Source: Acetobacter suratthaniensis (lineage in GTDB: Bacteria; Pseudomonadota; Alphaproteobacteria; Acetobacterales; Acetobacteraceae). From it: DNA of 64,000 nt. This document shows positions 57,022-64,000 of the stretch, in pieces; the stretch's first letter is position 1, and each line of letters starts with the position of its first letter. A program made the position numbers and the translations under genes. The stretch covers positions 1-64,000 of the forward strand of contig NZ_JAFVMG010000011.1 of NCBI RefSeq assembly GCF_017377745.1, read 5' to 3'. The notes under the pieces were generated by a model that saw only the letters and a list, made by a program, of their open reading frames with translations, made no database searches and was not told where the DNA came from.

Positions 57022-57228
57022 ATGCGTGACTCCATCATTCTTGAAATCAACGGCGTTTTTGTCGGCACTGTCATTTCTTCGGGCAACCCGCGCCAGAAAC
57101 GCTTTTACGCCGTGCATGAAAGCGTTCATGCCCTGCATAACCACGTTTTTTCAGACCGGGACGATATTCGCCGTCTGATTATCGGGCATTTTCATCATTC
57201 AGCGCCTCGGATCGCCCAGCCTGCCTGA
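57022..57228 (+). CDS. Small protein of 68 residues, unknown function
   Basis: ATG 57022 has AGGA nine bases upstream. The product begins MRDSIILEINGVFVGTVI and continues with KRFYAVHESVHALHNHVFSD and DDIRRLIIGHF, a compact domain with beta-strand then helix pattern and many His. It could begin earlier in frame (ATG 56914). It overlaps the 3' end of lysR by 50 bases on the opposite strand. The regular hydrophobic pattern and the promoter upstream argue for a real gene. Not recognised. Confidence 0.55.
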   Translation: MRDSIILEINGVFVGTVISSGNPRQKRFYAVHESVHALHNHVFSDRDDIRRLIIGHFHHSAPRIAQPA

Positions 57229-58222
57229 GCAGTTCGCGAATGAAAATCTGGAGCACGTTGCGGCTCTGATCAATGGCCCTGAACGCAATATAATGTTGCG
57301 AAACAAAGTAATAGACAGAGGGCTGGATAGGCCGCAACCGGCCCTCGCGCCGGTAGGGAGCGGCGGACTGCTCTGGCAGAAAGCCAATGAACCGGCCTGA
57401 GAGAATCATCATCAACTGTGCTTCCATATGCACAATGCTGCCACTGGCGCGTGGATGGTTGATGCGTTGCAGGTCTTCCAGTTTGCGATACGCCCGCACG
57501 GAAAAACGCGCACGGTCTATCATGTCCTTGGTAATCCGCTCATCCGCCATATCAAAAAACGGATGGCCCTGCCCGCAATAAAGGGCATGTGGCTCCTCGC
57601 ATAAAGGCAGATAACGCACACCCGGCGCATGGCGGGCAAACGGGCCAATCGCGACATCCCGCGTGCCATCCGCCACCTGCAGCTCCAGATCCTGCGGGAT
57701 CCCCAGTTGCAAATCAACATGCACGGTGGATACCTGATCAATCACGCGGGCCAGCACATCCTGCAAGGCTATATCGGGGTTGTTGATAATCCCGCCGATA
57801 CTGCCAATCCGTAGCCGCCCTCCCAGTTCCTGCGGTGCCTGACTGACACGGGCCTGAAAAAGTTCAATACTTTCAAAAAGATCCTGTATGGCGTCCAGCG
57901 TTTCCTGACCAAAGGCCGTCAGGCGAAAACCCTTGCGCCCCCGCAGGCACAATGCCCCGCCCAGACGCTGCTCAAGCGAGGCCAGATGCGTGCTAAGCGT
58001 GGACTGGCTGAGATTGAGAGCAATCTGTGCCGCAGCAAAGCTGCCGGTTTCAGCCAGAACAGCAAAAACCCGCAACAGGCGCAGGTCTATATTATCAAGC
58101 CGCCTGACACGCGTTGCCCCCGAAACAACGCGTTTGGGCGGAAAGCCCGGCTCCGCAGGCGGTGTCTTGTGCCTGCGGGCCGGGCCGGAAGAAGGGGAAC
58201 GCTGCTCTGGATTATCGCTCAT
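57179..58222 (-). CDS. LysR-family transcriptional regulator
   Basis: 347 residues. A basic, Pro/Ser-rich N-terminal tail of about 40 residues precedes the winged helix (IDLRLLRVFAVLAETGSFAAA, NLSQSTLSTHLASLEQRLG), then a substrate-binding domain. The ATG at 58222 lies inside the end of the ureohydrolase gene before it, overlapping 11 bases, so it is the last gene of the catabolic operon and likely regulates it. AGGA is three or four bases before the start, a short spacing. The start 126 bases further upstream would overlap far more. Its ligand is probably a guanidino substrate or product, by context. Confidence 0.9.
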   Translation of the reverse strand: MSDNPEQRSPSSGPARRHKTPPAEPGFPPKRVVSGATRVRRLDNIDLRLLRVFAVLAETGSFAAAQIALNLSQSTLSTHLASLEQRLGGALCLRGRKGFRLTAFGQETLDAIQDLFESIELFQARVSQAPQELGGRLRIGSIGGIINNPDIALQDVLARVIDQVSTVHVDLQLGIPQDLELQVADGTRDVAIGPFARHAPGVRYLPLCEEPHALYCGQGHPFFDMADERITKDMIDRARFSVRAYRKLEDLQRINHPRASGSIVHMEAQLMMILSGRFIGFLPEQSAAPYRREGRLRPIQPSVYYFVSQHYIAFRAIDQSRNVLQIFIRELLRQAGRSEALNDENAR

Positions 58223-59177
58223 TGTTCCTGAAATACAGGATCCGGCCGATGAGATTAAGCAGAAGCTGCGCCGCCAGAATGGGGGTGATGCGCGCGGGGT
58301 CGTAATCAGGGGCGACCTCCACCAGATCAATCCCGGCAATACGGCCACGCGCGGCTAGACCCGCCAGAAACTCCAGCATTTCATAATACAGGAATCCGCC
58401 GTGGCTGGGTGTGCCCGTGCCGGGTGCTATGGAGGGGTCGAACCCGTCAATATCAATCGACACGTAATAGTTCACCCCGGCGGGAATCCGCTCCAGCAGG
58501 GCATCAACCCCCATCTCGCGCACCTGCCGCACGCTCAGAATATCCGAGCCAAACCCACGGGCATCGTCATACCCTTCACGCGCGGTGGATGACACGTTGC
58601 GGATACCGATCTGGGTCATGCCCGTAATATGTGACCGTTCCGCAGCCCGGCGCATGGGGTTGCCATGCCCGTGGCGCACACCATGCCGCTCATCCACAAA
58701 GTCCAGATGGGCATCTATCTGCACAAGGTGCATGGGCGGCTGGTCATCGAACGCGCGAATACAGGGGATATTGATCGAATGATCGCCCCCCAGCACCACC
58801 GGCAGCGCCCCTGCGGCCAGAATGGCACGCACCCCGGCTTCTATGCCTGCATGGCTGCGTTCGGTATCGGTGTGGACAATATCGGCATCGCCTATATCGA
58901 CAATCCGGCAGCCCTCTCCGCCCAGATAAACCCGGTCATCCTCATGATCGTACGCGCCCGCATGGCCAAAGGCGAACAGGGTGGACGCCTCGCGGATACT
59001 ACGTGGCCCGAAACGCGCGCCAGCACGCCACTGGGTGCCGCCATCAAACGGCGCGCCCAGAATGGCAATATCCGCATCAATGGCCGACCAGTCTGTCTGG
59101 ATCGGGTATTTACCAAAGCTGCAAATACCAACAAACGGCAGATTGAGCCTGCCGCTATCGTAACCGTTAGCGCTCAT
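58212..59177 (-). CDS. Ureohydrolase (agmatinase/arginase family), second of a pair
   Basis: Binuclear-metal hydrolase that removes urea from a guanidino group. From ATG 59177 it has 321 residues. Metal ligands are all present: His133 (GGDHS), Asp155, His157, Asp159 (DAHLD) and Asp242, Asp244 (SIDIDGFDP). The segment DERHGVRHGHGNPMRRAAE is the substrate-side loop of an uncharacterised agmatinase-like branch. The ATG overlaps the stop of the first ureohydrolase by four bases. The pair is only distantly alike, so they are not a recent duplication. Substrate unknown; agmatine is one option, creatine-like acids another. Confidence 0.88.
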   Translation of the reverse strand: MSANGYDSGRLNLPFVGICSFGKYPIQTDWSAIDADIAILGAPFDGGTQWRAGARFGPRSIREASTLFAFGHAGAYDHEDDRVYLGGEGCRIVDIGDADIVHTDTERSHAGIEAGVRAILAAGALPVVLGGDHSINIPCIRAFDDQPPMHLVQIDAHLDFVDERHGVRHGHGNPMRRAAERSHITGMTQIGIRNVSSTAREGYDDARGFGSDILSVRQVREMGVDALLERIPAGVNYYVSIDIDGFDPSIAPGTGTPSHGGFLYYEMLEFLAGLAARGRIAGIDLVEVAPDYDPARITPILAAQLLLNLIGRILYFRNNER

Positions 59178-60133
59178 GCGCCCCTCCCCGCAGCAATCGC
59201 GCACAGCAGTTCAAACATGATGGTTGCCCCGGCCAGAGAGGTAACACCCCCCACATCAAACGGCGGCGAAACCTCCACAACATCAGCCCCGACAATGTCG
59301 AGCCCGTTCAGCCCCCGGATCATGCGCTGGGCCTCCCGCGTAAGAAAACCGCCAGCTTCAGGCGTGCCGGTGCCAGGCGCCACGGCGGGATCAAGGCAGT
59401 CCACATCGAACGAAATGTAAACCGGGCCATCGCCCACACGCGCACGAATGGCCTGCACGATCCCGTCCGGCCCGAGTTCGGTCGCCTCGTCCATCAGAAT
59501 CAGGCGAAAACCGGCATTCCGGGCGTAATCGTAATCACGCGGGGTGTACAATGAGCCACGCAGGCCGATCTGGAGCGTGCGCTCACAGTCAATCAACCCT
59601 TCTTCCACCGCCCGACGGAACGGCGTACCGTGGGTGTAACGGTTCTTGCCGAAATACGAATCCGCCGTATCGGTATGGGCGTCAAAATGGATCAACCCCA
59701 CCGGACGCTCCGCCGCAAGGCCACGCAGAATGGGCAGGCTGACCAGATGATCGCCTCCCGCCGCCACAGGAATGGCCTTGGCAGCGGCAATGCGGGCAAA
59801 ATGGCGGGTAATCAGGTCAAGACTGTCCATCACGTCAAACGGGTTGACCGGGCAATCGCCTATATCCGCGACTTTCAGCACCTCATACGGTGCAATACCA
59901 TTGGCATTGACCTGCCGCATAAGCGATGAGGCATTGCGCAGTTCACGCGGGCCATGCCGCGCACCTGAGCGGTTGGTGGTGCCGCCATCATACGGAATGC
60001 CGGTAAAGACGACATCATACCCTTCCGGGCTGGTTGCCTGCGGCAGGCGCATGAACGTTGGCACCCCGGCAAAACGCGGCACCATGCTGGCATCGGCCAC
60101 CTGCGTTTCTGTGCCGTGCGGTTGGCTGCTCAC
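59174..60133 (-). CDS. Ureohydrolase (agmatinase/guanidinobutyrase-like), first of a pair
   Basis: 319 residues, with the family metal sites: His129 (GGDHL), Asp151, His153, Asp155 (DAHTD), Asp243 and Asp245 (SFDVDCLDP). GIPYDGGTTNRSGARHGPREL near residue 45 and TPEAGGFLTREAQRMIRGL resemble guanidinobutyrase and agmatinase enzymes. Its ATG overlaps the creatininase stop by four bases and its stop overlaps the next ureohydrolase, so the three proteins are made in a fixed ratio. Two adjacent unlike ureohydrolases could form a mixed oligomer. Confidence 0.9.
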   Translation of the reverse strand: MSSQPHGTETQVADASMVPRFAGVPTFMRLPQATSPEGYDVVFTGIPYDGGTTNRSGARHGPRELRNASSLMRQVNANGIAPYEVLKVADIGDCPVNPFDVMDSLDLITRHFARIAAAKAIPVAAGGDHLVSLPILRGLAAERPVGLIHFDAHTDTADSYFGKNRYTHGTPFRRAVEEGLIDCERTLQIGLRGSLYTPRDYDYARNAGFRLILMDEATELGPDGIVQAIRARVGDGPVYISFDVDCLDPAVAPGTGTPEAGGFLTREAQRMIRGLNGLDIVGADVVEVSPPFDVGGVTSLAGATIMFELLCAIAAGRGA

Positions 60134-60912
60134 AGCCCGAACTCCTTGCGCAGGGCGGCGGAAAGCAGGCGCACGTGGTCATCCATCAGCCACTGGCCCT
60201 TTTCCGCTGTTGACCCCTGCGCACGCGCCAGCACACCCGAGGCAGGCACCACGCCGGGGCGCAGGGGCCAGCGGTCATAAGTGGGGAAATCCGCCGGGCC
60301 ATCTGATGGCACTTTTTCCATATCTACCAGATCCTCGCGCAGCAGCAGCATGAGCGAGGTTTCAAGCAGGCTGGCATGTTCCAGCTCGGTACCGGGGAAC
60401 CCATCGGGGAACAGCCTGTCCAGCGTAGAACGCTCGACAAAATCCCAGTATTCCAGCCTCATGGCTACAAAATCCGTAATTCCGTCGCGGCGCAGTTCGC
60501 GCATGGCCAGATCAAGCCCTTCGACAGCAGGCCAGGCATTTTCAAAATGCCCGTTCACCAGCACCAGACGCCGCACGCCGTTATGCGCCAGACGGCAGAC
60601 CACATCGCGGATAACCAGAGACAGGGTTGCCGCATCCAGCCCGATACAGCCGGGAAACTGCTCCCCCCCACCCGAGCGGGGCTGTGATTTGTAGCCATAA
60701 GGCAGGGTGGGCGCCACAAGTCCGCCCAGTTCAGCGGCCACACAGTTGGCAACGCCAGTCGGCAGAACCTGATCGACATTCAGCGGCAGGTGCGGGCCAT
60801 GCTGCTCGGTGGCCCCCAGCGGCAGAAACACAACCGGATTGCGGGCAATCCGCTGCGCAAAATCAGGCCAACTCAGTTCGGCAAGCTGAACGGTTTCAGA
60901 CATGATGACCAT
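60130..60912 (-). CDS. Creatininase-family amidohydrolase
   Basis: Opens a cyclic amide; the best-known member turns creatinine into creatine. The 260 residues keep the metal ligands in order: Glu36, His38, Asp47 (ATEQHGPHLPLNVDQ), then His122 and Glu124 (NGHFENAWP). GHFEN matches GHYEN of Pseudomonas creatininase rather than the GHGGN of other family branches. Further stretches (YGYKSQPRSGGGEQFPG, RLEYWDFVE, ETSLMLLLREDLVD) are also of the creatininase type. Start may be ATG 60912 or ATG 60903; AAGGA lies just before. No creatinase (M24-like) gene follows; ureohydrolases do. Confidence 0.9.
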   Translation of the reverse strand: MVIMSETVQLAELSWPDFAQRIARNPVVFLPLGATEQHGPHLPLNVDQVLPTGVANCVAAELGGLVAPTLPYGYKSQPRSGGGEQFPGCIGLDAATLSLVIRDVVCRLAHNGVRRLVLVNGHFENAWPAVEGLDLAMRELRRDGITDFVAMRLEYWDFVERSTLDRLFPDGFPGTELEHASLLETSLMLLLREDLVDMEKVPSDGPADFPTYDRWPLRPGVVPASGVLARAQGSTAEKGQWLMDDHVRLLSAALRKEFGL

Positions 60913-60919
60913 ATTCCTT

Positions 60920-60975
60920 CTGTTTTTAAAAACAGTGTTTTTTTAAAGATTCTTGAAGCACTGATTTTTTCAGTG
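60920..60975. repeat. Two palindromes in the gap before creatininase
   Basis: CTGTTTTTAAAAACAG (60920-60935) is a perfect 16-base palindrome just upstream of the creatininase ribosome site. CACTGA-TTTTT-TCAGTG (60959-60975) overlaps the stop of the SDR gene. This is the only sizeable gap in the otherwise overlapping operon and it is AT-rich. It could be an operator, an internal promoter or an RNA-processing site. No typical terminator T run follows the hairpins. Confidence 0.45.
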
Positions 60976-61683
60976 CATGGCGGCACCGCCATCAACACTC
61001 AGGCACTGGCCTGTAATGAACGCCGCATCCGCCGAGGCCAGAAACAGGGCCGCACGGGCTATTTCATCAGGCTGGCCAATACGCCCCATAGGATTGGCCA
61101 TGTCCTGCGCACGGGTTTTTTCGTCCTGTGCATCAAAGTTGAGCAGCGGTGTATCCACCGGGCCGGGTGCGATCGCATTCACCCTGATACGCGGCCCCAG
61201 TTCGCGCGCCCATGAGCGTGTAAGCGAGAGCATGGCCCCTTTGGTAGCGCAGTAGAGAGACGCACCAGCCCGGCCCAGATACGCCAGTTCCGATGCAATA
61301 TTGAGAATGCACCCTCCCGCCCCCATGAACGGCAGGGCCGCCTGCGCCACCAGAACCGGCGCACGCAGATTGACCGCCAGCGTCAGGTCCAGCGCCTGCT
61401 GCGTAATCTGCGCCAGTTCCTGTTCCAGCATGATACCAGCACAGTTCACCACCACATCAAGACGCCCATCCAGCCGGGCAGCCGCCTGCCGCACCGCATC
61501 GGCCACAGCGTGTGGGGCTGCCAGATCAACTGGAATAATCTCGCACGCTCCCGTATCGCCTGCGTTGATATCCAGCCCCACAACGCGCCCGCCTTCAGCC
61601 TGCCATGCCTGCGCAATGGCCCGCCCGATCCCCGAGGCTGCCCCTGTTACCAGCACATGCTGGCCTGTTTTGCACTCACGCAT
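60970..61683 (-). CDS. Short-chain dehydrogenase/reductase
   Basis: Classical SDR of 237 residues. NAD(P) motif TGAASGIG, NCAGI, the catalytic Ser in LNIASELAYLG, and YCATK (Tyr/Lys) are intact, with PGPVDTPLLNF. A basic residue pattern for NADP is not obvious (GLDINAGD suggests NAD). Substrate unknown. It ends 58 bases before creatininase and begins 11 bases after another SDR. Confidence 0.9.
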   Translation of the reverse strand: MRECKTGQHVLVTGAASGIGRAIAQAWQAEGGRVVGLDINAGDTGACEIIPVDLAAPHAVADAVRQAAARLDGRLDVVVNCAGIMLEQELAQITQQALDLTLAVNLRAPVLVAQAALPFMGAGGCILNIASELAYLGRAGASLYCATKGAMLSLTRSWARELGPRIRVNAIAPGPVDTPLLNFDAQDEKTRAQDMANPMGRIGQPDEIARAALFLASADAAFITGQCLSVDGGAAMH

Positions 61684-61694
61684 GATCCCCGCCC

Positions 61695-62453
61695 CTAAAA
61701 CGGATGTTCGCCACGATCGACGCCAAATGTCTGCCCGGTAATGCTGGCGGCAAAGGGCGATGCCAGAAACAGATACGTGCAGCTGATATCATCAGGGTTC
61801 ATAAAACCAGAGAGAGCCTGCCCATCCAGTATCGCCTGCATCAACACGTCTTCTTCCTTGCCCGAACGCTCAGCCATGGCCGTAAGCGAACGGAGGGATG
61901 CCTCGGTTCTCACCCAGCCGGGAGCAACGGCATTCACGCGGATTGCGCGTGGCCCAAGCTCCTTTGCCCATGTTTTTGTCAGGCCGATAAGCGCATGTTT
62001 GGAGGCCACATACGCCCCGAATAGTGGCTCGGCCACACGCCCCCAGATAGACGCCGTGTTAATAATACACCCGCCCGCAACCATATGCGGCAGGGCCAGC
62101 CGGGTTACATGATAAGTACCCACGATGTTGGTGTGGATCACCTGCTCGAACAGGCTGACGGTCTGCTCATCCTGTGCGGTAACAGGGGTCAGGCGCTCCA
62201 GCCCTGCATTGTTGACCAGCACATCCACCTGCCCATGATCGCGCAGAATATCGGCCATGGCAGCAGCATTGCCAATATCAGCCACATAACCACGCGCGCC
62301 GAGTGTGGCCGCAACGTCTGGCATGGTTTCATCTTGCGCAACAAGGCTGAGCGAAGCCCCGGCCGCGGCAAAAGCCTGTGCGATACCAAGCCCTATGCCC
62401 CGGCTGGCCCCCGTAATCAGAACTGACCGGCCAGAAAAATCGAACGTATTCAT
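61695..62453 (-). CDS. Short-chain dehydrogenase/reductase
   Basis: 252 residues with TGASRGIG, NNAG, Ser in INTASIWGR and YVASK, all needed for catalysis. The loop GWVRTEASLRSLTAMAERSGKEED is longer than usual and probably shapes the substrate pocket. It is clearly different in sequence from the SDR after it, so two separate oxidation steps or a mixed complex are possible. Its ATG overlaps the ABC ATPase stop by four bases. Confidence 0.9.
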   Translation of the reverse strand: MNTFDFSGRSVLITGASRGIGLGIAQAFAAAGASLSLVAQDETMPDVAATLGARGYVADIGNAAAMADILRDHGQVDVLVNNAGLERLTPVTAQDEQTVSLFEQVIHTNIVGTYHVTRLALPHMVAGGCIINTASIWGRVAEPLFGAYVASKHALIGLTKTWAKELGPRAIRVNAVAPGWVRTEASLRSLTAMAERSGKEEDVLMQAILDGQALSGFMNPDDISCTYLFLASPFAASITGQTFGVDRGEHPF

Positions 62454-63277
62454 GCGCCCTCCTGCCCGGCTTCGCGCAGGCGACCACGCAAAAGATGAAG
62501 AATATCTGTACGGATATGAAAAAATCTTTCACTGTCACGCAAGGTTTCATCGCGTACAGGGCCGACCATGGACAGAATATCCATATCCGCCATAACCCGC
62601 GCGGGCCTGCTGCCGAATACGATAATGCGGTCAGCCAGAAACACCGCCTCTTCCACATCATGGGTTACAAAAATCGTTGTCTTACCCGATTTTTTCTGGA
62701 TTTTTCGTAGTTCGTACTGAAGGTCTTCACGCAGGTTGGCATCCAGTGCGCCAAACGGCTCATCCATCAGCAGAACATCAGGATCAGCCGCGAGGGTGCG
62801 GGCAATAGCCACACGCTGGCGCATACCGCCCGAAATACGCGAGGGATAACTGCTGGCAAAGTCTGAAAGCCCCACCAGATCAAGAAAATATCCCGCTCTT
62901 TCGCGTTTCTGTGCCTTTGTCATATCACGGCGGAAACGCATGCCAAACTCGACATTTTTTCGCACGCTCAACCACGGAAAGGACGAATAGGACTGAAACA
63001 CCATACCCCGGCGGATATCCGGCCCCCCCACAGGCTGACCCTGTAGCAGAATGCGACCTGATGAGGGCGTATCCAGCCCCCCGATCATGCGCATGAGCGT
63101 GGTTTTGCCGCAGCCCGAAGGCCCCAGAAACACCACGAACTGCCCGGCAGGAATATCCAGTGAAAATGGCTCTTGCACCACAGGCACGGCGCCGAACGTT
63201 TTTGTTACGGACTCGAAGCGCAGATACGCCCCGGCCTGATCGGGCATGCTGCCCGTATTGCCCAGCGTATTACTCAT
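62450..63277 (-). CDS. ABC transporter ATPase (nitrate/sulfonate/taurine import type)
   Basis: 275 residues from ATG 63277. Walker A GPSGCGKTT, Q-loop VFQSYSSFPWLSV, signature SGGMRQRVAIARTLA, Walker B LLMDEPFGALD and the switch His in FVTHDVEEAVFLADRI are all present. It resembles SsuB/TauB ATPases, which drive import of small organic solutes. It overlaps the permease stop and the SDR start by four bases each. The solute-binding protein must be elsewhere, probably just outside the window. Confidence 0.94.
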   Translation of the reverse strand: MSNTLGNTGSMPDQAGAYLRFESVTKTFGAVPVVQEPFSLDIPAGQFVVFLGPSGCGKTTLMRMIGGLDTPSSGRILLQGQPVGGPDIRRGMVFQSYSSFPWLSVRKNVEFGMRFRRDMTKAQKRERAGYFLDLVGLSDFASSYPSRISGGMRQRVAIARTLAADPDVLLMDEPFGALDANLREDLQYELRKIQKKSGKTTIFVTHDVEEAVFLADRIIVFGSRPARVMADMDILSMVGPVRDETLRDSERFFHIRTDILHLLRGRLREAGQEGA

Positions 63278-64000
63278 GACGACTGATACCTGAAAAGAAA
63301 GCGATGCAGCAGACGCAGGCACTGATCTGTCAGCAGCCCGATCAGGCCGATCATGATCACACCGGCCATCACCTGATCGGTTTTCATGAAACGACGCGCT
63401 GTCCAGATAACAAAGCCCAGCCCGCTATCCGATGCGACAATTTCTGCAATAATCACATAAGTCCAGCACCAGCCAAGGCTTATGCGCATGCTGTCCATAA
63501 GCTGTGGCAGCATGGCAGGCAGGGCAACCGTACCCAGTGTCTGGCGTGGCTTGGCTCCTAGCGTATAGGCGGTTTCAAAATACTCGCCCGGTACACGCTT
63601 CATGTCGGCGGCCACCATCAACACGAGCTGGAAGAACGTGCCGAGCCAGAGCAGGAAAATCTTGGTTTCCTCCCCCACGCCAAACCAGATGATGGCCAGC
63701 GGTACCAAAGCGGGCACAGGCAGATACCGAATGAAGTCGATCAACGGCTCCAAAAACGCACCGATAATCCTGTATCCGCTCATGAGAATACCAAGCGGCA
63801 CCGCAATAATTGCAGACAGCAGAAATGCCGACCACACCCTGCTGATGGAAATCAGCGCATTGGGCATGGCCACACCATCGGCACACATGGTCCAGAATGC
63901 GCGGGCCACAGTCGCGGGAGAGGGCAGGAAGATGGGCGCTACAACATGCAGCGCCACAATCAACCACCATGCGCCCAGAAAGCTCATGGCCCCCAAAAGC
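63274..64000 (-). CDS. ABC transporter permease (SsuC/TauC-like), start outside the window
   Basis: At least 240 residues are visible; the frame is open to the window edge, and relatives carry about 20-30 more residues before the visible first helix (LGAWWLIVALHVVAPIFLPSP). The BPD_transp_1 core contains LGAKPRQTLGTVALPAMLPQLMDSMRI, including the EAA-loop region that contacts the ATPase, and GLGFVIWTARRFMKTDQVMAG, typical of the sulfonate/taurine/nitrate group. It is the most upstream gene visible in the catabolic operon. Confidence 0.9.
   Translation of the reverse strand, partial: LLGAMSFLGAWWLIVALHVVAPIFLPSPATVARAFWTMCADGVAMPNALISISRVWSAFLLSAIIAVPLGILMSGYRIIGAFLEPLIDFIRYLPVPALVPLAIIWFGVGEETKIFLLWLGTFFQLVLMVAADMKRVPGEYFETAYTLGAKPRQTLGTVALPAMLPQLMDSMRISLGWCWTYVIIAEIVASDSGLGFVIWTARRFMKTDQVMAGVIMIGLIGLLTDQCLRLLHRFLFRYQSS

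Follow-up and report, generated by a model that had tools for sequence, protein, structure and literature searches.

A conserved operon of Acetobacter suratthaniensis that combines a creatininase-family enzyme with ureohydrolases and is probably distinct from the known creatinine route

Introduction

The closest described counterparts of the locus considered here are the creatininase of Pseudomonas putida (EC 3.5.2.10) together with creatinine operons that encode an M24 creatinase, the 3-guanidinopropionase GpuA of Pseudomonas aeruginosa, and the metformin hydrolase MetCaCb (MfmAB), which is encoded by two adjacent arginase-family genes. IolN, another creatininase-family enzyme, acts on a cyclic diketone. 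Here we analyze a stretch of 64,000 nucleotides from Acetobacter suratthaniensis (the window, positions 1-64,000 of contig NZ_JAFVMG010000011.1, so that window and contig coordinates coincide), and in particular a minus-strand operon at its end that encodes a creatininase-family amidohydrolase (CRN), two short-chain dehydrogenases (SDRa and SDRb), two ureohydrolases (U1 and U2), an ATP-binding cassette (ABC) importer and a LysR regulator. The operon is real and conserved, and it probably differs from the known creatinine route; we hold with good confidence that it is a catabolic operon for a guanidino compound outside the classical creatinine pathway, and this variant of guanidino-compound catabolism appears to be new. 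In the open-licence PMC papers we found no description of the operon.

Results

The creatininase-family enzyme lies outside the creatinase-linked clade

CRN (60130..60912, minus strand) shares family and fold with the P. putida enzyme and, as the first-pass annotation of the window had recognized, carries all five metal ligands (E34, H36, D45, H120 and E122 in Pseudomonas numbering); its expected substrates are amides of cyclic guanidines. It passes the NCBI creatininase model TIGR04448 with 342.9 bits (cut-off 235) and has a weak match to the model for IolN (59 bits, cut-off 245). Trp154 and His178 are kept in CRN, and Trp174 is replaced by threonine. We take Trp154 and Trp174 to be substrate-pocket residues of Pseudomonas creatininase, and both have been mutated among the PDB entries of that enzyme. 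All 21 creatinase-linked copies have tryptophan at position 174, and none of the 95 SDR-linked ones does; of these 95, 79 were selected by motif, and in an unselected sample the tryptophan was again absent (0 of 11). Compared over 200 residues, these rows represent 20 and 90 different sequences, respectively. In a tree from which one locus (L018, 10 amino acids recovered) was excluded, the Acetobacter CRN falls outside the creatinase-linked clade that contains the P. putida enzyme. The sequence GHFEN, earlier read as a signature of true creatininases, does not serve as a marker, since P. putida has GHYEN and both Phe and Tyr are found in the creatinase-linked and SDR-linked groups alike.

On its sequence, CRN is not a classical creatininase; it is a putative hydrolase of a cyclic acylguanidine. 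Creatinine is an unlikely substrate of the operon because CRN lacks Trp174 and because U1, described below, belongs to the 3-guanidinopropionase clade and has the arginine predicted to bind a carboxylate. The alternative, which follows the substrate first suggested for this locus, is a creatinine pathway in which ureohydrolases replace creatinase: CRN would convert creatinine to creatine, U1 and U2 would release sarcosine and urea, sarcosine oxidase would follow, and the SDRs would have side functions. The match to TIGR04448 and the retained metal ligands, Trp154 and His178 are compatible with such a route, as are two soxB genes and a urease alpha gene in the genome, where a search for M24 creatinase, which had no positive control there, found none. 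Set against these points are the loss of Trp174, the separate clade of CRN, the GpuA type of U1, and the specificity of a human GbuA-like enzyme that, in the available excerpt of PMC9772407, accepts guanidino acids that are linear and takes neither creatine nor guanidinoacetate. Two conserved SDRs would also be left unexplained. The case for creatinine is thus weakened by residue 174, by clade and by neighbourhood, and we judge this pathway distinctly unlikely.

Several more distant or variant relatives of CRN were encountered. A copy on a plasmid of Salipiger sp. CCB-MM3 (L021 7965-8756) has asparagine at the metal ligand His120 (GNYEN) and is the only one of the 95 SDR-linked rows without this histidine; its activity may be altered or lost. 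A relative of 39% identity with Ala174, on plasmid pOV14c of Ensifer adhaerens OV14 (82409-93167), is flanked by three annotated agmatinase genes, an amidase gene (gatA) and a LysR gene, which makes it another creatininase-ureohydrolase grouping. In four loci from unselected genomes (L199-L201 and L203, CRN near 6 kb), a CRN with Phe174 lies in variant clusters that also hold an NMT1-type binding protein, a desaturase-like oxygenase, SDRs, a permease and an ATPase, to which L201 adds a lactonase-like protein and an isochorismatase-fold hydrolase that resembles biuret hydrolase (245 bits, below cut-off).

U1 resembles guanidinopropionase and U2 is an optional companion

U1 (59174..60133, minus strand) matches GpuA (3nip, 426 bits, 61% identity) more strongly than the guanidinobutyrase GbuA (3nio, 317 bits, 48%). 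For 71 other U1 copies, identity is 58-70% with GpuA and 47-52% with GbuA, and all of them keep the six metal ligands and an arginine at the position of GbuA R72, and at the position of GpuA Y157 they have Tyr (43) or Phe (28). The Acetobacter U1 has the metal ligands, the arginine and the tyrosine, the same ligands and recognition residues as GpuA. In a FastTree analysis of 147 rows, GpuA lies within a 77-row clade with the operon U1 copies (support 98) and GbuA lies outside it. The excerpts available of two papers indicate that R72 could bind the substrate carboxylate (PMC9772407) and that Y157 and M161 recognize substrate (PMC10833137). Given this clade, the arginine and the roles so cited, we expect the substrate of U1 to be a short guanidino acid. 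Where the two systems would differ is in context: CRN and the SDRs, encoded in the same operon as U1, would provide what it hydrolyzes.

U2 (58212..59177, minus strand) is agmatinase-like (195 bits to 1wog) and passes the NCBIfam agmatinase model TIGR01230 with 185.9 bits (cut-off 174.3); U1 also passes, with 185.7 bits, so the model cannot separate the two. The metal ligands of U2 are intact and the carboxylate-binding arginine is missing, with Ala or Ser at that position in 32 other copies. The gene occurs in 37 of 385 genomes of the class, the source genome included, often with no CRN nearby, and in several genomes it adjoins unrelated genes, which argues against U2 as a dedicated operon gene. 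The earlier description of the pair as ureohydrolases in place of creatinase is not supported, as U1 is of the guanidinopropionase type and U2 is optional (32 of the 80 loci described below) and widespread away from the operon. As a separate observation, one genome (G240) has a CRN-SDRb-Rieske cluster (L185) and a U1-U2-LysR unit (L148) about 34 kb apart on one contig, as if the pathway were split.

The adjacency of U1 and U2 recalls metformin hydrolase and raises the alternative that they form a two-gene heteromer acting on a biguanide or a similar compound. In the 80 loci U2 never occurs without U1, U1-U2-LysR units lie away from CRN in three genomes, and the portion of PMC11271267 at hand names as an open question the function of arginase pairs in which each member keeps its ligands. 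In that same portion MetCb has lost five of its six ligands, whereas U1 and U2 each keep the full set; moreover, U2 is missing from 37 of the 69 loci that contain U1, and it occurs elsewhere with no neighbouring U1. With full ligand sets in both members, a heteromer of the metformin hydrolase kind was set aside as highly improbable.

The gene set is conserved across families

Named contigs were scanned with an alignment of five CRN proteins, and the best 80 of 134 candidate stretches were kept as named loci of up to ~20 kb; since the scan patterns include PG[IT]ELEHA, this set is selected for that motif. SDRa is present in 72 of these loci, SDRb in 74, U1 in 69 and U2 in 32, accompanied by LysR (67), ATPase (57), permease (53) and binding-protein (46) genes. 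The combination of SDRa, SDRb and U1 is complete in 64 loci spread over 13 named families, including Halomonadaceae with two, and Alphaproteobacteria account for 75 of the 80. The grouping is not due to chance, because SDRa-SDRb-CRN-U1 are contiguous in that order and on one strand in 58 loci, and thus provides the recurrence in other genomes that had been proposed as a check on the operon. An M24 creatinase is absent from the operon and from all 80 named loci. Among named genomes, A. papayae has the closest CRN (96%), and within the genus the distribution is patchy, with CRN in 9 of 49 Acetobacter genomes, the source genome included. A protein of ~258 amino acids with no Pfam match recurs in seven of the CRN loci (L009 8469-9245, L034, L037, L038, L042, L062 and L067).

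This conservation bears on a further alternative, a mixed operon. In this view U2 would simply be an agmatinase and U1 a guanidinopropionase or guanidino-acid hydrolase of the usual sort, and SDRa-SDRb-CRN would serve a lactam or cyclic ketone that has nothing to do with them, much as IolN acts on a cyclic diketone. The occurrence of U1 and U2 elsewhere without CRN, the existence of CRN-SDR loci without ureohydrolases and the weak match of CRN to IolN are in keeping with it. The contiguity of SDRa-SDRb-CRN-U1 in 58 loci speaks against such a mixture, as does the finding that SDRa and SDRb accompany U2 even where CRN is absent, and we regard it as unlikely.

Related clusters have another putative hydrolase in place of CRN, and oxygenases recur in CRN clusters

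Plasmid records were searched with U2 (66 records at 1e-80, 5 opened), SDRa (2 records at 1e-60, of which 1 new one was opened) and CRN (376 records with a match, 19 opened). A cluster in Roseovarius THAF9 resembles the operon in its ATPase (50%), permease (38%), U2 (76%), SDRa (50%) and SDRb (41%), and it has a GpuA-like enzyme (58% to GpuA, its two recognition residues being Arg and Tyr) and a polysaccharide-deacetylase-family (PuuE-like) protein. This PuuE-like protein also accompanies U2-SDRa-SDRb, with no CRN, in Shinella HZN7 and Ensifer CTYH (91% identical between these two, 66% between Roseovarius and Ensifer). Across the three, U2 (73-76%), SDRa (50%) and SDRb (41-42%) are those of the operon, but CRN's position is held by a protein from a cyclic-amide hydrolase family of unrelated fold, and PuuE is one of this protein's solved relatives. 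By analogy, this suggests that CRN opens a cyclic amide, because a ring-hydrolase family fills its place. We found no description of the clusters with the PuuE-like protein, and no literature search was aimed at them.

Other U2 contexts are different. Roseateles XES5 has no ring hydrolase and combines U2 with two dehydrogenases, one for aldehydes and one a BetA-like alcohol dehydrogenase, and with a cytosine-type permease; in this one example the aldehyde dehydrogenase would leave no ring to be opened. In Rhizobium leguminosarum the only partner of U2 is an amino-acid transporter, and the Haematobacter record contains neither the SDR/PuuE-like set nor the dehydrogenase pair.

Oxygenases are found repeatedly in the clusters with CRN, and they are of three kinds: flavin mononucleotide (FMN) monooxygenases, desaturase-like proteins and Rieske proteins. 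An NtaA/DmoA-type FMN monooxygenase occurs in the clusters of Salipiger, Acidocella facilis, a proteobacterial metagenome-assembled genome and two Ancylobacter. A Rieske protein is present in seven of the named loci (L030, L034, L037, L038, L047, L062 and L063) and in L185, and in five of those loci it is situated between CRN and U1; it is nearest in kind to carnitine/glycine-betaine monooxygenases, far below the model cut-off (128.6 bits versus 670). These oxygenases fit a hydroxylation step ahead of the SDRs: they could install the hydroxyl that the SDRs oxidize, and on a carbon adjoining nitrogen this could yield a hemiaminal directly.

A proposed pathway and its weak points

We propose, tentatively but as a serious possibility, that the operon carries a guanidino alcohol through an aldehyde or cyclic hemiaminal and a cyclic acylguanidine to a guanidino acid and finally urea, the substrate, reactions and their order all being predictions. 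A small guanidino compound with an alcohol group, or the cyclic hemiaminal formed by its aldehyde, would be taken up by the NMT1-type binding protein and the ABC importer. One SDR would oxidize the alcohol to the aldehyde, which would close on the guanidine to give the hemiaminal, and the other would oxidize the hemiaminal to a cyclic acylguanidine, a creatinine-like lactam that would be six-membered if the chain has three carbons. CRN would hydrolyze the lactam to the guanidino acid, which U1 would split into urea and an amino acid. With 3-guanidinopropionate as the acid, the amino acid would be beta-alanine, and the loss of Trp174 would make room for the six-membered ring. U2 would serve as a further, optional ureohydrolase that perhaps takes a non-acid form, and urease, whose alpha gene is present in the genome, would consume the urea. 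Such an operon would be catabolic and probably nitrogen-scavenging. Uptake and hydrolysis of a guanidino compound had been suggested for this locus from the outset, together with an oxidizable hydroxyl and a substrate other than creatinine, and the comparisons support each of these points.

Several observations weigh against this pathway. Neither ureohydrolase was seen in 11 of the 80 loci, one of which (L087) has a partial ureohydrolase by tblastn. The PuuE match, best in NCBIfam for the PuuE-like protein, is weak (PuuE allantoinase, 87.5 bits, cut-off 424.6), and among the 5 of 66 U2 plasmid records that were opened, two have the SDR/PuuE-like set, one the dehydrogenase pair (Roseateles) and two neither. 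CRN relatives with Phe174 (L201) or Leu174 (L192) have in their clusters an enzyme that resembles biuret hydrolase (245 bits in L201 and 317 in L192, cut-off 370), so the wider clade does not share a single chemistry. The two sarcosine-oxidase beta (soxB) genes of the genome keep creatinine use possible. The nearest PDB relatives of SDRa and SDRb are generic and name no ligand; for the binding protein phmmer found no solved relative, and its nearest relatives likewise name no ligand.

Layout and surroundings of the operon

The contig continues past the window to 91,081 bases, and extension upstream located a solute-binding protein gene immediately beyond the window edge, as had been anticipated, which makes this an operon of nine genes in the order binding protein, permease, ATPase, SDRa, SDRb, CRN, U1, U2 and LysR, all on the minus strand. 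The binding protein (contig 64074-65060) is of NMT1/THI5 type (NMT1, 58 bits), and Foldseek relates it to TauA (19% identity, TM 0.71-0.78) and to Thi5 and SsuA folds. The NitT/TauT-type permease (63274..64000 in the window, continuing to contig 64077) scores 88 bits to BPD_transp_1 and the ATPase (62450..63277) 108 bits to ABC_tran. SDRa (61695..62453) and SDRb (60970..61683) match adh_short_C2 with 169 and 198 bits and would carry out, respectively, an alcohol or hemiaminal oxidation and a second oxidation. The LysR regulator (57179..58222) is recognized by HTH_1 (60 bits) and LysR_substrate (72 bits). The overlap geometry indicates likely ATG starts at 63277 for the ATPase, 59177 for U2 and 58222 for LysR.

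The first-pass annotation had listed eight tightly packed minus-strand genes joined by 4-bp overlaps. The genes and families are as it described; such overlaps occur at five of the eight junctions (binding protein/permease, permease/ATPase, ATPase/SDRa, CRN/U1 and U1/U2), and the others are an 11-nt gap (SDRa/SDRb), a 57-nt gap (SDRb/CRN) and an 11-bp overlap (U2/LysR). No guanidine riboswitch was detected at the Rfam gathering threshold in the operon locus (L003) or in the loci of five relatives. Beside the operon lie a tRNA gene (contig ~66498-66569, L003 10499-10570) and a gene that by eye resembles the exonuclease VII large subunit (contig 65251-66303, L003 9252-10307) and that just 2 of the 49 Acetobacter genomes have, which together suggest that the surroundings are a variable island.

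Discussion

Taken more broadly, and more tentatively than for this one operon, the comparisons raise the possibility of a widespread, undescribed route from guanidino alcohols to amino acids and urea that would dispense with an aldehyde dehydrogenase: the aldehyde would be trapped as a cyclic hemiaminal, oxidation would turn this into a cyclic acylguanidine, and a creatininase re-tuned through loss of Trp174 would open the ring, while other bacteria would fill the ring-opening step with an unrelated allantoinase-type hydrolase. This may be a case of unrelated ring hydrolases filling one pathway step.

Relatives in the CRN clade are annotated as creatininase and those of the ureohydrolases as agmatinase, and the proteins pass both NCBI models; these names probably misstate the physiological function. 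In the copies examined, residue 174 alone separates the creatinase-linked from the SDR-linked enzymes. With U1 and U2 the operon adds to the arginase pairs that have intact metal sites and whose roles are called open in the part of PMC11271267 consulted, and it presents a conserved gene set whose substrate could be screened with a handful of compounds.

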